DNA of 64,000 nucleotides from Ottowia thiooxydans DSM 14619 (GTDB lineage Bacteria > Pseudomonadota > Gammaproteobacteria > Burkholderiales > Burkholderiaceae_C): positions 1 through 64,000 of the forward strand of contig NZ_AUGX01000036.1 of NCBI RefSeq assembly GCF_000422885.1. Direction: 5' to 3'. A program made the translations under genes and the position numbers. Under the pieces are notes generated by a model. That model was not told the DNA's origin. It was given only the letters and a program-made list of their open reading frames with translations, and did not search any database. Shown in pieces: positions 8,875-14,346 of this stretch. The first letter of the stretch is position 1; each line of letters begins with the position of its first letter.

Positions 8875-9885
8875 TTATGTGAGCATCCGCTCAGACACTG
8901 CAGCTTCGGCTACCTGAGTTGAGTTGAATGTGGCAACGCCGTACTGCTCCAAAAAGCTCTGCGCATCCAACGCGGCCATGCAGCCAGATCCCGCACTGGT
9001 GATGGCTTGCCGATACACATTGTCCTGAACATCTCCGGCGGCGAAGACGCCCGGGACGCTCGTCATGGTTGCAAACCCGTTGCTCCCTGATCGAGTCGTG
9101 ATGTAGCCGTTCTTCATGGTCAGTTGGCCGTCGAAGATCGCAGTGTTGGGACTGTGGCCTATTGCAATGAAACAGCCGCGCAGCGCGATATCCTCGGTTT
9201 GGCCATCGGGCAAATGAAGCAGACGAACCCCTGTAACACCCCCACCGTCGCCCAGGACGTTGTCGAGCGTGGTATTCAGCTTAAGCCGCAAGTTCCCGGT
9301 ACGCACGCGCTCGTACATTTTGTCCAGCAAGATGGGCTCCGCCCGGAACACCTCCCTCCGGTGAATGAGTGTCACGCTCCGGGCGATGTTTGATAAGTGC
9401 AAGGCTTCCTGGACCGCTGTATTGCCTCCTCCCACAACACAGACATCTTCGTTTCGGTAGAAAAACCCATCGCAGGTGGCACAGCCGGAAACGCCTCTTC
9501 CCATAAACTCCTGCTCAGAAGGCAGTCCAAGATATTTGGCGGACGCCCCCGTTGCAATGACCAAGGCGTCACAGGTGTAGGAGTTGTTATCGCCAAACAG
9601 CCTGAAGGGCCTACTGCCGAGCTCCACGCGGTGGATGTGATCAAAGACCACCTCGATGTTAAAGCGCTCGGCATGGGCTTGAAAGCGCTGCATTAGCTCA
9701 GGGCCCTGCACGCCATGCACATCGGCAGGCCAGTTATCCACCTCTGTGGTGGTCATGAGTTGGCCACCTTGCGCCATTCCCGTGATGAGCATGGGCTGCA
9801 GGTTGGCACGTGCCGCATAGACCCCGGCCGTATAGCCCGCAGGCCCGGAGCCCAGAATCAGAACCTTGGCGTGTCTGGCGGTCAT
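8875..9885 (-). CDS. trxB: Thioredoxin reductase
   Basis: The 336-residue flavoenzyme has the FAD motif GSGPAG (residues 12-17), the redox-active CATC pair Cys135/Cys138 in [11 protein letters not shown], and the NADPH motif VGGGNTA (151-157). Length matches bacterial low-Mr thioredoxin reductases. I place the start at the ATG at 9885, 10 bp after the Bug stop, rather than at longer in-frame starts inside that gene. It is the last gene of an operon that also encodes a thioredoxin and a UGSC-family protein, so it is probably a dedicated electron source for that system rather than the only cellular TrxB. Confidence 0.93.
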
Positions 9886-9895
9886 GGAGCCGGTG

Positions 9896-10906
9896 TCATT
9901 CAAGGCGGATACCGGCGGCGCGCACGATACCTGCGTAGCGTTGTGCCTCGGATGCGCAGAAGGCACTGAACTGCTCTGGGGTGTCGCCCACCGGCTCAGC
10001 CAGCACGTCGGTGATGCGCTTTCGCACGTCTGGCATAGCCAGTACCTCTTTGACCTCCGCGTAGATCCTGGCTGTCACAGCCCGCGGCAACTTCGCTGGC
10101 CCCCAGAGACCGTACCAGGAGGACAGGTTAACGCCTGGATAGTTCAACTCTGCAAAGGTGGGCACGTCAGGAAGCACGTCAACCCGACGTGGCGAGGTCA
10201 CGGCAAGTGAGCGAAGCCTTCCGCTCTTTACGAGGGCGATGGACGACGGCATGGAGTCCAACATGTAGGTAACTTGCCCCCCCATGACATCTGTCAACGC
10301 CGGCGCACTGCCTTTGTAGGGGACATGCAGAACGTCGAGCTTGGCGACCGTCTTCAGGAGCTCACCCGTCAGATGACCAGGTGTACCGTTGCTCGAAGAA
10401 GCAAATGAGTGCTTTCCTGGCTGCGAGCGGACGAGCTTCAACAGATCATCAAATGAGCGTACTGGCGAATCAGCGCTGATGACGAGCTGAATCGGCGTCG
10501 TAGCGACGTTGGTTATAGGCTGGAAGTCCTTGAGCGGGTCATGGGGCATCTTGGAGAACAACGCAGGGTTGACAAGATGCCCGGAGACGTTGATCAGCAA
10601 GGTGTACCCATCAGGCGCTGCTTTCGCCACGGCATCGGCACCAATCATGCCGCTTGCACCTGGGCGATTCTCGATAGTCACCGTCTGACGCAGCCGCTCC
10701 GAGAGGGCCTGCCCGACGACACGGGCCACGATATCTGTGGGGCCGCCCGCAGGAAACGGCACCATGATTCGAATCGGCTTGGACGGAAAGTCGTCCTGCG
10801 CCCAAGCTCCACTCGGCAATCCGGCGGCTACGGTGCCGGACATCGCAATCATGAAACGACGTCGGTCCCAGGCACCGGATTGGGGCCATTGTTTATGGTG
10901 GTTCAT
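9896..10906 (-). CDS. Bug-family solute receptor
   Basis: The ATG at 10906 is preceded by CCAGGAGACAAA, a strong ribosome site, giving a 336-residue protein. Its N-terminus [17 protein letters not shown] followed by a hydrophobic stretch and GAWAQ looks like a signal peptide with a twin-arginine. Bug motifs [47 protein letters not shown] and [18 protein letters not shown] follow. It sits between the CoA-transferase (52 bp) and trxB (10 bp) genes, so the operon appears to import a carboxylate for the UGSC/thioredoxin system. No TctAB partners are nearby. Confidence 0.92.
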
Positions 10907-10958
10907 TTTGTCTCCTGGTTGTTGTTGAAAACGTCGGAACGTTGTTTTCGCTTCTTTT

Positions 10959-12577: not shown

Positions 12578-12603
12578 GGACATCTCTCCTATCGCCGCAC
12601 CCA

Positions 12604-13185
12604 TCACTGAAGGTCAACCTTGATTTGCAGCGGAGGCTGAGTGCCCAGCCAGACCTTCTGGGCCTGCTCTCTGATCTGCGCGACCCGCTGCGCCACCTCT
12701 TCAGCAGTGATCGAGCTGACCGGATGGGTAATCACCACCGGCTCAAGGGTCTTCATGCCCACGGCCTGGCGGGTGAGTTCGGTCTCACGCACGAACTCGG
12801 TCGTGATGATGACCGCGCTGGGAATGCCAAGCTTCTCCAGTGCGATGGAGTCCCTCACGCACGCTGAGCAGCACGAACCACAGTCGCCGATAGCGGTGAG
12901 GACCACGTCATTTTCACTGGCGATCTTCTCGATGAGTTCGGGCGCGGCATCTTTGGAGAAGCTATGTTTTACGTAGTAGTTCACCGCAGCGAACTCGATG
13001 TCTTCGCCAAGCGCTGCAGCGGCTCCTCGCAGCAGCTTGTTGGCGTTCCATTTCGAGTTATCCAGAATGCCCAGACGAAGTTTCTTGAGGTCCTTCTTAC
13101 GCGCGGACGTTGGGACGTTTTCGAACCGAAGCGCGCCGCGCGGGTCGTAAACAGCTACCTTGCTGGGATCAGCTTTCATCAACAT
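12604..13185 (-). CDS. UGSC-family protein, cysteine form
   Basis: The 193-residue protein contains D-C102-G-S-C105-C106-S-A-C109, matching the motif that names the UGSC family, in which the first residue is selenocysteine in some members; here the codon is TGT, so it is Cys. Four cysteines lie within eight residues. A strong AGGAGAG precedes the ATG at 13185. The family's reaction is not established, but the motif is redox-active in type. It lies between the 372-residue partner and thioredoxin, suggesting a Cys-based reductase component that thioredoxin regenerates. The family recognition is from memory; function is inference. Confidence 0.78.
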   Translation of the reverse strand: MLMKADPSKVAVYDPRGALRFENVPTSARKKDLKKLRLGILDNSKWNANKLLRGAAAALGEDIEFAAVNYYVKHSFSKDAAPELIEKIASENDVVLTAIGDCGSCCSACVRDSIALEKLGIPSAVIITTEFVRETELTRQAVGMKTLEPVVITHPVSSITAEEVAQRVAQIREQAQKVWLGTQPPLQIKVDLQ

Positions 13186-13227
13186 GGTTCTCTCCTAAGT
13201 TTTCTGGAATATTCCGCTCACGCCTTC

Positions 13228-14346
13228 TCAGAGGGCACAAGCGCCACCAACGCAATCAGCTCCGTTGTCGTTGGCGCTGCTGCCTTCAATCGGCTGAAGC
13301 ACCGGGGTGCTCATGTGGCCCCATCCAGGAATCAGCACCGAGAAGCGGCCCGCTTCGCCACCCATCACGAAGAGGTGAATGTGATCCGGGCTGTGAATGA
13401 TGGGAATACGTGTGTTGTCTTCGCGCTTGTAATACTTCGGCAAGTTGCGGTTGTAGACCTTGCCGTAGCGATGTCCGTACGCCAGGTCGATGAAGCGATT
13501 GCCGTGGTTCGCAAAGAGGTAGTTTCGAATGTCGGCGCGTGACCAACCGCGCTTACCGATGGTCTCTGCATGCTCAAGACCGAGGACAACGGCAATGTGG
13601 CCCCCCAAGACAGCGCTGTTGGAAGCAATGGTGCTCATGGCCGAGCACATGGTGTCCAGAATGCCCTCCGGGTCGTTGGAGATGTGGTTCGTGACACTGT
13701 GCGGCGCCTCGGCAGCCATGGCGAACACGGTCGAGTCTTCAGGCTTATAGCCATGCTCCACGTGGTAAGGCGCTAATGGGCTCTGCGCTTCGTTCTCGCA
13801 GACACAGTACGTGTATTTGCCTGGGTGTCCCAGCGTGCTCTTGTCCAGGTCGCCAGGCCAGCCACCACCGACGTTGAGCATGATCAGCCGCAACGCCCGG
13901 CCAATGGTGGCGTTGGCTCGGTTGCCGGAACCGAATGCGTTCACACCCCCATTCATTCCGATCTCACGCGCTATCGGGCCATTCACGATGAGAAGAGGCG
14001 AGGCGACGTGCGTGGTCGCTTGCACACCATTCAGGTTGAAAGCTTGCTGAGTAACGGCCCGCACCGCGGCCAGCACTACGGGAGCGTACTCGGGCTTGCA
14101 ACCAGCCATCACCATGTTGATGGCCAGCACTTCACGGGTGAGATCCCCCCAGCGAGGGGCAATGCGTGCTTCGACGAAGGACGGGTCGCCCCCAAGGCGT
14201 GCGACGACCTCATCGATCTTTTCCTGAGTGGGAGGAACAACGGGCAAGCCGTCGCTGAAGCCCCGTTCGTAGTAATACTCGACCAAGTCCACGCTCGCTG
14301 GAACGTGGCTTACGACTGAGGCTGGCGTTTGCAATACGGCGTTCAT
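13228..14346 (-). CDS. Unrecognised 372-residue partner of the UGSC protein
   Basis: I do not recognise a named family. An N-terminal segment YYERGFSDGLPVVPPTQEKI (about 25-44) is followed by a mixed alpha/beta, Gly/Ala-rich body with no signal peptide or membrane span. The C-terminus ends ADCVGGACAL, placing Cys365 and Cys370 in a probably flexible tail, as in enzymes that pass electrons through a mobile C-terminal dithiol. Other cysteines include the CVCENE segment. An AGGAGAC precedes the ATG. It is the first gene of the operon, 42 bp before the UGSC gene, and divergent from a LysR regulator. It may form the substrate-binding part of a reductase with the UGSC protein. Confidence 0.75.
   Translation of the reverse strand: MNAVLQTPASVVSHVPASVDLVEYYYERGFSDGLPVVPPTQEKIDEVVARLGGDPSFVEARIAPRWGDLTREVLAINMVMAGCKPEYAPVVLAAVRAVTQQAFNLNGVQATTHVASPLLIVNGPIAREIGMNGGVNAFGSGNRANATIGRALRLIMLNVGGGWPGDLDKSTLGHPGKYTYCVCENEAQSPLAPYHVEHGYKPEDSTVFAMAAEAPHSVTNHISNDPEGILDTMCSAMSTIASNSAVLGGHIAVVLGLEHAETIGKRGWSRADIRNYLFANHGNRFIDLAYGHRYGKVYNRNLPKYYKREDNTRIPIIHSPDHIHLFVMGGEAGRFSVLIPGWGHMSTPVLQPIEGSSANDNGADCVGGACAL

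Follow-up and report, generated by a model that had tools for sequence, protein, structure and literature searches.

Among the described systems closest to the locus considered here are the glycine and D-proline reductases. As far as the sources that treat these enzymes go, thioredoxin is the reductant of glycine reductase, and the selenocysteine motif of GrdB and PrdB participates in the reaction (PMC13188914). A GrdB-like fluoroacetate reductase operon, farACEB, has been described in Cloacibacillus, and in the relevant part of that report its authors propose reductive C-F cleavage (PMC10838667). This operon is a precedent for a GrdB-type pair with a transporter in the reductive cleavage of a small acid, although it has GrdB and GrdE homologues together with a radical SAM protein, and its host is an anaerobe.

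The UGSC family (PF24696, NF041046) figures, in those parts of the literature that name it, as a selenoprotein of no known function, called abundant or entered in a list, and the same parts make no mention of a partner, a thioredoxin system or a relation to GrdB/PrdB. A Global Ocean Sampling study of 2008 reported UGSC fused to an unknown domain, Unknown_1; the sections of that paper that deal with the fusion propose no partnership or function for UGSC/Unknown_1 (PMC2398784).

Here we investigate a window of 64,000 nt from Ottowia thiooxydans DSM 14619 (contig NZ_AUGX01000036.1, positions 1 to 64,000), in which a clear member of the UGSC family, with its motif intact, is encoded beside a 372-residue protein, P372. 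We read P372 and UGSC as an enzyme that cleaves an imported small acid reductively with electrons from thioredoxin and that joins a redox module of GrdB/PrdB stock to a different substrate partner, and give this reading a probability of roughly 0.6. It draws on the gene content, the near-obligate pairing, the fusions, the conservation of the motif, the profile similarity of UGSC to GrdB/PrdB and the recurrence of TrxB.

Gene content and layout of the operon

The initial annotation had placed six genes on one strand at 8875..14346. All six are present there, on the minus strand, and they form a single operon:

8026..8811, GntR gene, convergent, beyond the operon end
8875..9885, minus strand, TrxB-type thioredoxin reductase, the genome's second (TIGR01292)
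9896..10906, minus strand, Bug/TctC periplasmic solute receptor (PF03401)
10959..12176, minus strand, family III (CaiB-type) CoA-transferase (PF02515)
12272..12577, minus strand, thioredoxin with CGPC active site (PF00085); start at the ATG behind AGGAGAG
12604..13185, minus strand, UGSC-family protein, cysteine form, with the C102-G-S-C105 redox motif (PF24696, NF041046)
12880..12882, minus strand, TGT codon of UGSC C102, where most relatives have TGA (selenocysteine) in the codon alignment
13228..14346, minus strand, P372, the 372-residue partner protein, without a Pfam or NCBIfam family
14514..15473, plus strand, LysR-type regulator, divergent, heading the operon (PF00126/PF03466)

Strong ribosome sites had been claimed before most of the genes; AGGAG-type sites precede four of the six (P372, UGSC, thioredoxin and Bug), but the CoA-transferase and TrxB lack one. 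For the thioredoxin the most likely start is 12577, which follows its own ribosome site and leaves no overlap with UGSC. With the starts of Bug and TrxB revised to 10906 and 9885, the intergenic gaps are, in operon order, 42, 26, 95, 52 and 10 nt. A scan of 8700-14700 found no sigma-70-like promoter. The AMDase, isochorismatase and GntR genes that neighbour the operon in the window were rejected as members of the system, each having a relative in 0 of 97 loci at E<=1e-10. Genes in the loci of relatives were called by a codon-usage scheme.

P372 and its pairing with UGSC

UGSC and P372 are a near-obligate pair. They are present in the identical five of 398 Pseudomonadota genomes, and in the class sample P372 is adjacent or fused in all three genomes that have UGSC. 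UGSC accompanies 76 of 86 P372 loci; the stretch at the other ten contains none, and six of these are Poribacteria with a short P372. P372 also matches 24 plasmid records, and in each of the 11 loci opened among them UGSC is likewise present. A same-strand UGSC lies no more than 700 bp away for 81 of 99 P372 domains, in both gene orders and with 10 in-frame fusions. On the UGSC tree of 77 pairs (intact, with at most one TGA, the motif present and less than 700 bp apart) there are at least four changes of order and at least six of fusion state. The distance matrices of the two proteins correlate with r=0.87, as against at most 0.15 in 500 permutations. Their copy numbers correlate across 44 genomes (rho 0.98), in a comparison that covers 44 of the 79 loci from the P372 search, and copies of the pair reach at least 61 and at least 50 in one genome. 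Related pairs are found in many bacteria and in the salt-loving haloarchaea.

The window P372 has no match in Pfam or NCBIfam at E 0.001, and at least 582 relatives were found in a search of genome contigs. It may be the Unknown_1 domain of the Global Ocean Sampling fusion. The alignment holds the window protein and 71 of the 85 rows offered, matches of about 880 nt or less being excluded. In its 72 rows D32, T40, R150 and E184 are each invariant, C83 is kept in 71 and C181 in 63. Searches of solved structures with single sequences and profiles, at E up to 10, returned no credible relative of either P372 or UGSC. A BURRH match to P372 (E 5e-7) is taken as a repeat artefact, summed over many short repeats with no single stretch passing, and the weak matches of individual rows are put down to chance, both in Pfam (MTTB, with best E 0.048, in 4 of 72 rows; each of the other families in a single row) and in NCBIfam (one or two rows each). 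In two loci, L012 and L014, a CxxC-bearing, thioredoxin-like N-terminal domain appears by eye to be fused to P372; Pfam at 0.01 finds nothing in that region.

The redox motif and its relation to GrdB and PrdB

The window UGSC passes both curated cut-offs of its family (PF24696, 200.9 bits against 25; NF041046, 162.9 bits against 125). The motif C102-G-S-C-C-S-A-C109 is exactly as first described, and with TGT as the codon of C102 its first position is cysteine rather than selenocysteine; NF041046 is named '(seleno)protein', and cysteine forms count as members. No SelA match was found in this genome, while an E. coli control was positive. Among 87 aligned UGSC relatives the codon of the first motif position is TGA in 71, TGC in 14 and TGT in one, with one gap. 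The cysteine version is nested among selenocysteine versions on the UGSC tree, which bears out its earlier description as the cysteine-based relative of a selenoprotein.

The UGSC alignment comprises the window protein and 57 of the 71 rows offered; TGA-bearing matches without a cysteine at +3 and matches of about 430 nt or less were excluded, so the full invariance of C105 in it is partly a result of row selection. In the unselected count, [UC]G[SAG]C is present in 83 of 87 domains. UGSS occurs in two further domains, and M-G-T-S replaces U/C-G-S-C in two distant fusions, from Vibrio europaeus and Sporomusa termitida; the chemistry of U/C-G-S-C is therefore not usable by all members. A hairpin 3' of the TGA was rejected as proof of recoding, as it does not discriminate between TGA and cysteine genes: 57 of 65 TGA genes have a better fold in the 48 nt starting at the TGA than in same-gene controls, but so do 13 of 14 cysteine genes. 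In a separate folding check z was below -2 in one of four TGA stretches and above 0 in both cysteine stretches.

Profile comparison relates UGSC to the selenocysteine redox segment of GrdB/PrdB. hhalign gives 90.0%, 91.8% and 89.8% against GrdB/PrdB profiles, compared with 0.15% against PrdA, and places C102 on their redox Sec/Cys column. Of 58 UGSC proteins in an NCBIfam scan at E up to 5, 21 match the glycine reductase B model TIGR01917, at best with E 4.8e-6, and 17 the PrdB model; the surely unrelated CheD and NapF models match nine and six in the same scan (NapF best E 8.6e-5). The Pfam GRDB model PF07355 matches none of the 58 at E up to 5 and has no match in this genome, and the window UGSC scores 18 bits against TIGR04483 (cut-off 300); UGSC thus lies below the curated cut-offs of all three family models. 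The likeness extends to a U/C-G-[ST]-C segment followed by G-[IL]-P, to an HP further on as in GrdB and, in the proposed reading, to the two-component build and to thioredoxin as the reductant, as in glycine reductase.

The earlier comparison with glycine reductase holds at the profile level for UGSC, but P372 has no detectable relationship to PrdA (0.1%), which contains GrdE-like parts, or to GrdB (0.8%), and by this comparison is not a pyruvoyl-processed partner of the GrdE/PrdA type. UGSC also differs in its length of about 190 residues, which align only to the C-terminal part of GrdB/PrdB, and in its host lineages, which include haloarchaea. Organisms known as aerobes are among the hosts of the pair.

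Might P372 instead be a non-redox catalyst, such as a lyase or hydrolase, and UGSC a structural or regulatory subunit, its redox residues serving as a thioredoxin-controlled on/off switch? We regard this as unlikely. The four invariant polar residues of P372 would suit such a catalyst, as would the persistence of a recognisable P372 part in the M-G-T-S fusions, which have aconitase X genes among their neighbours. However, a TGA retained in 71 of 87 domains is costly for a mere switch, and the similarity is to proteins whose selenocysteine motif, in the part of the source that treats them, joins the reaction (PMC13188914).

Thioredoxin supply and the proposed reaction

The window thioredoxin exceeds the PF00085 cut-off (82.2 bits), and its translation contains CGPC; the longer open reading frame falls just below the cut-off of TIGR01068 (89.3 against 96.8). 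TrxB scores 368.6 with TIGR01292 (cut-off 343.45), and the two together constitute a thioredoxin system. The only other TIGR01292 copy over the cut-off in this genome is at C4:231176-232093. The initial annotation had proposed a survey for P372, thioredoxin, TrxB and CoA-transferase beside UGSC homologues. P372 does recur there, so that one half of the refuting condition set by that annotation does not apply, and an extra TrxB recurs, sometimes with TrxA, but the CoA-transferase has a relative in 21 of 97 loci and none at E<=1e-10 in 76. A TrxB-like gene (E<1e-20) is found in 10 of 97 loci, where about one is expected from the density in this genome, and 86 are without one. The order is trxB-trxA-P372-UGSC in Arthrobacter and P372-UGSC-trxB in Roseovarius; apart from the window, a stand-alone thioredoxin was found beside the pair in Cupriavidus and Arthrobacter only.

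The same U/CxxC motif and thioredoxin and TrxB partners would also fit an antioxidant function in thiol repair or peroxide removal, in which the pair would reduce a disulfide, sulfoxide or peroxide with thioredoxin as its ordinary electron donor and would not be catabolic; the passages on UGSC in two papers group it with selenoproteins of Trx-like fold (PMC2398784, PMC13188914). Such a role is improbable: nearby genes encode importers, LysR regulators and acyl-CoA enzymes, dozens of paralogous pairs in single genomes suit substrate diversity better than housekeeping repair, and UGSC was not found in 393 of the 398 Pseudomonadota genomes.

Under reductive cleavage, P372 and UGSC would together, probably as a physical complex, form one reductase, with the substrate bound by P372. 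The UGSC selenol or thiol at the first U/C-G-S-C position would attack the substrate at an activated carbon (or heteroatom), the leaving group would depart, and C105 would resolve the adduct, releasing the reduced product and leaving a selenenyl-sulfide or disulfide behind. The operon thioredoxin, itself recharged by the operon TrxB with NADPH, would restore the enzyme. The substrate would be a small carboxylate, taken up by a Bug-type importer, with the LysR regulator as its sensor, and the CaiB-type CoA-transferase would feed ordinary acyl-CoA metabolism by converting the substrate or, more likely, the product to a CoA thioester. The redox module would share descent with GrdB/PrdB, and the substrate partner would be a different protein. 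Counting against a reductase are the M-G-T-S fusions without redox residues, the failure of PF07355 to match any of 58 UGSC proteins, the absence of thioredoxin and TrxB beside most pairs, the 10 of 86 loci without UGSC and the matches of the unrelated CheD and NapF models.

Through the pairing, UGSC gains a partner that is near-obligate, a likely reductant and a family tie to known selenium reductases. With the paired genes and this operon, it therefore becomes possible to test the function of selenoproteins that have long been an orphan family. The substrate can be sought in practice without expressing selenocysteine, because the version in this proteobacterial operon, encoded beside an importer, a regulator and a CoA-transferase, uses cysteine, and Cupriavidus pauculus has a close relative of it. 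More tentatively, at a little under even odds, the pairs may constitute a large class of enzymes that has gone unrecognised, in which NADPH and thioredoxin drive reductive cleavage. The redox module of this class would be a distant relative of glycine reductase and its substrate protein would be its own; it would range from aerobic proteobacteria and mycobacteria to haloarchaea, with dozens of paralogues in environmental genomes, and would open many stable C-N, C-S, C-O or C-halogen bonds. If so, chemistry of the glycine reductase type would reach far beyond anaerobic amino-acid fermentation.

The CoA-transferase belongs to family III (PF02515, 437.9 bits, over the cut-off); its nearest model, the succinate-glutarate CoA-transferase NF052585, gives 513.6, below the cut-off of 750. 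Of 18 close relatives, 8 have it 3' of UGSC (in one case it comes after thioredoxin), and the contig ends first in two of the other ten. Because it is confined to these eight and to 21 of the 97 loci, it is an accessory of the window's branch, and more likely acts before or after the catalytic step than within it. Could the pair, as the initial annotation suggested, reduce the very thioester that this enzyme produces? The position 3' of UGSC and the 64-70% identity to the window's copy in three close relatives speak for it, but the other copies are only 27-53% identical and the 76 loci without a relative argue against it, so that we consider it very unlikely.

The Bug receptor scores 229.3 bits with PF03401. 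Relatives of the window LysR (E<=1e-10) are present in 11 of 97 loci, and in L019, L020 and L029-L031 P372 and a LysR gene diverge; the divergent LysR is the probable substrate sensor of the operon. Genes near the pairs suit a catabolic setting, as they encode CoA-transferase, Bug, enoyl-CoA hydratase, acyl-CoA dehydrogenase, SDR, and TRAP and ABC receptors.

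The operon in the window and its genome

Six genes form a compact operon on the minus strand of the window, five of which received a clear domain assignment in Pfam and NCBIfam scans.

Operon genes, in order of transcription
13228–14346, minus strand: P372, the 372-residue protein, without a Pfam or NCBIfam match
12604–13185, minus strand: UGSC protein (PF24696/NF041046), clear domain assignment
12272–12577, minus strand: thioredoxin, clear domain assignment
10959–12176, minus strand: family III CoA-transferase, clear domain assignment
9896–10906, minus strand: Bug receptor, clear domain assignment
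8875–9885, minus strand: TrxB, clear domain assignment

AGGAG-type ribosome sites precede four of the six genes. Pfam and NCBIfam gave no family match for P372, and 72 P372 rows scanned singly at E up to 5 returned scattered weak matches, with no family matching more than 4 of the 72. One further TrxB in the genome passes the TIGR01292 cut-off, so the operon TrxB is an extra copy. Neither SelA nor the Pfam GRDB model, PF07355, has a match in this genome. Beside the operon, positions 6087–8811 hold a separate neighbourhood of an AMDase-family protein, a second Bug receptor and a GntR/UTRA regulator. AMDase, isochorismatase and GntR genes near the operon were rejected as members of the system, being conserved in 0 of 97 loci each.

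Pairing of P372 and UGSC

P372 and UGSC form a near-obligate pair. Their co-occurrence in other genomes, predicted by the initial annotation, is borne out: separate searches with P372 and with UGSC found the same five of 398 Pseudomonadota genomes, the window's own included, and UGSC is present in 76 of 86 P372 loci. These loci comprise 79 retained from a scan of genome_contigs, which held at least 582 P372 relatives, and seven from other searches; the relatives listed range from one in Cupriavidus, with 91% identity, to others in Mycobacterium, Rokubacteria, Chloroflexi and the haloarchaeon Natrialba. UGSC itself was found in 1 of 29 genomes of the genus sample (the window's own), 3 of 274 of the class sample (P372 adjacent or fused in all three) and 6 of 101 of the Chloroflexota sample, centre genome counted. 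On plasmids it adjoins or is fused to P372 in all 11 records opened, from 24 with a P372 match.

For 88 of the 99 P372 domains in the 86 loci, the stretch also contains a UGSC on the same strand, and for 81 the distance is no more than 700 bp. UGSC precedes P372 in 39 of these pairs and follows it in 42, and ten are in-frame fusions. A UGSC tree of 77 pairs requires at least four changes of order and at least six of fusion state, showing that closeness has been kept while the arrangement varies. The P372 and UGSC distance matrices correlate at r = 0.87 (highest of 500 permutations, 0.15), a value from which shared ancestry is not removed. In 44 genomes from the 79 loci, every one picked for holding P372, UGSC was present in all 44; copy numbers were equal in 24 and correlated overall (Spearman 0.98). 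One Chloroflexi genome (G703, locus L044) has at least 61 UGSC and at least 50 P372 domains, and two others have 32/35 and 26/28. First-look candidates in G703 exceeded 200 for each protein, and the true count may be higher.

UGSC was not found in ten of the 86 loci: L039, where P372 lies at a contig edge, six from Poribacteria, where P372 is shortened, L050, L076 and L079. In the one Poribacteria genome tested, a single UGSC and a single P372 are on different contigs. In L092 UGSC is on the opposite strand. Two haloarchaeal plasmid loci (L150:4319–5311 and L156:5953–6978) have two P372 genes beside one UGSC, which may serve more than one P372.

Redox kinship and proposed mechanism

The initial annotation had likened the operon to glycine reductase systems. 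In a scan of 58 UGSC proteins at E up to 5, 21 matched the NCBIfam model for glycine reductase selenoprotein B (best E 4.8e-6) and 17 that for D-proline reductase PrdB (best E 0.0015, for the window UGSC), with GrdF, GrdH and TIGR01918 also among the matches; the surely unrelated CheD and NapF models matched 9 and 6 (best NapF E 8.6e-5), and PF07355 matched 0 of 58. The UGSC profile scored 89.8% against GrdB, 90.0% against PrdB and PrdB-like proteins and 91.8% against GrdB plus PrdB (E 7.3e-7, each E-value being for one comparison), versus 0.15% for the control, the D-proline reductase protein PrdA. C102 of the window UGSC aligns with the redox column of GrdB/PrdB, which is TGA in ten GrdB genes examined, and H154-P155, kept in 58 and 57 of 58 UGSC rows, aligns with the HP of GrdB. 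By profile comparison, UGSC is a relative of the GrdB/PrdB redox segment. The P372 profile reached 0.1% against PrdA and 0.8% against GrdB. Thus the redox part resembles that of glycine and D-proline reductases, whereas the substrate partner does not. In loci L119–L133, many short frames match only C-terminal PF07355 (approximately positions 200–347); these form another group of GrdB-like proteins, which lack the N-terminal portion.

The codon at the C102 position in 87 aligned UGSC domains is TGA in 71, TGC in 14, TGT in one and uncovered in one. The motif is UGSC in 59, CGSC in 15, UGAC in five, UGGC in four, UGSS in two, USSC in one and cut in one, so that [UC]G[SAG]C covers 83. The selenocysteine/cysteine state changes at least four times on the tree. 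The window codon, TGT, is one base away from TGA. SelA- and SelB-cluster genes, named from one scanned representative per cluster with the others assigned by clustering, are no more than 5 kb away from the pair in L012, L024, L033 and L093. TGA and cysteine genes were not told apart by a hairpin test for recoding.

In the parts of the literature accessible to us, UGSC appears in selenoproteome surveys and reviews, and a fusion to an unknown domain, possibly P372, was reported in 2008 (PMC2398784). A link to GrdB/PrdB was not found in those parts and may have been proposed elsewhere; P372 and the two-part enzyme appear undescribed there. The UGSC redox part belongs with the known selenium reductases.

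Attack, leaving-group loss, resolution and re-reduction by thioredoxin are the general chemistry behind the proposed mechanism. By analogy with PrdB, the selenol or thiol of UGSC would attack the activated carbon of the substrate, from which a leaving group would depart; C105 would resolve the adduct and thioredoxin would restore the dithiol. For the window operon, we infer this whole mechanism by analogy.

The strongest result contrary to a redox role is found in UGSC-P372 fusions of Vibrio europaeus and Sporomusa (L152:5416–7101 and L154:6317–8041), in which M-G-T-S replaces U/C-G-S-C; aconitase X and DUF126 genes lie close to each of them. The fusions are probably a non-redox branch, in which the redox step may have been lost or may never have been present. 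Without redox residues they leave room for P372 itself to be the catalyst, which we keep as a possible alternative.

Probable electron supply and metabolic neighbours

TrxB-like genes (E < 1e-20) occur in 10 of the 97 loci (1.41 Mb in total), four of which supplied their own TrxB as query; an eleventh is weak (E 5e-5). By a different search method, the window's genome has five such matches in 7.05 Mb, which gives a rough expectation of one TrxB-like gene in the 97 loci. The arrangements include trxB-trxA-P372-UGSC in Arthrobacter, LysR-P372-UGSC-trxB with CaiB and TRAP genes in Roseovarius, trxB-Bug-SDR-P372-UGSC in Variovorax SRS16 (UGSC annotated 'hypothetical') and P372-UGSC-Trx-CoAT-TrxB-Bug-LysR in Cupriavidus. 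Three thioredoxin queries found a stand-alone thioredoxin in L017 and L151 only, among the 97 loci.

The pair's surroundings are a catabolic setting with varied importers. A CoA-transferase lies 3' of UGSC in 8 of 18 close relatives, and relatives of the window CoA-transferase, Bug and LysR occur in 21, 21 and 11 of the 97 loci. Other neighbour clusters that recur, each identified through a single scanned member, are SDR, enoyl-CoA hydratase, luciferase-like oxidoreductase, acyl-CoA dehydrogenase, amidase and DctP/SBP receptors. Genes for CoA transferase, CoA ester lyase, LLM and TAXI-TRAP stand beside the pair on plasmids of haloarchaea.

Two P372 proteins (L012:5556–7211 and L014:7713–9227) have an N-terminal extension that is thioredoxin-like by eye (CxxC), without a Pfam match. 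At its C-terminus, an Arthrobacter UGSC (L151:7000–7815) has a NifU-like domain (27.2 bits against a cut-off of 27).
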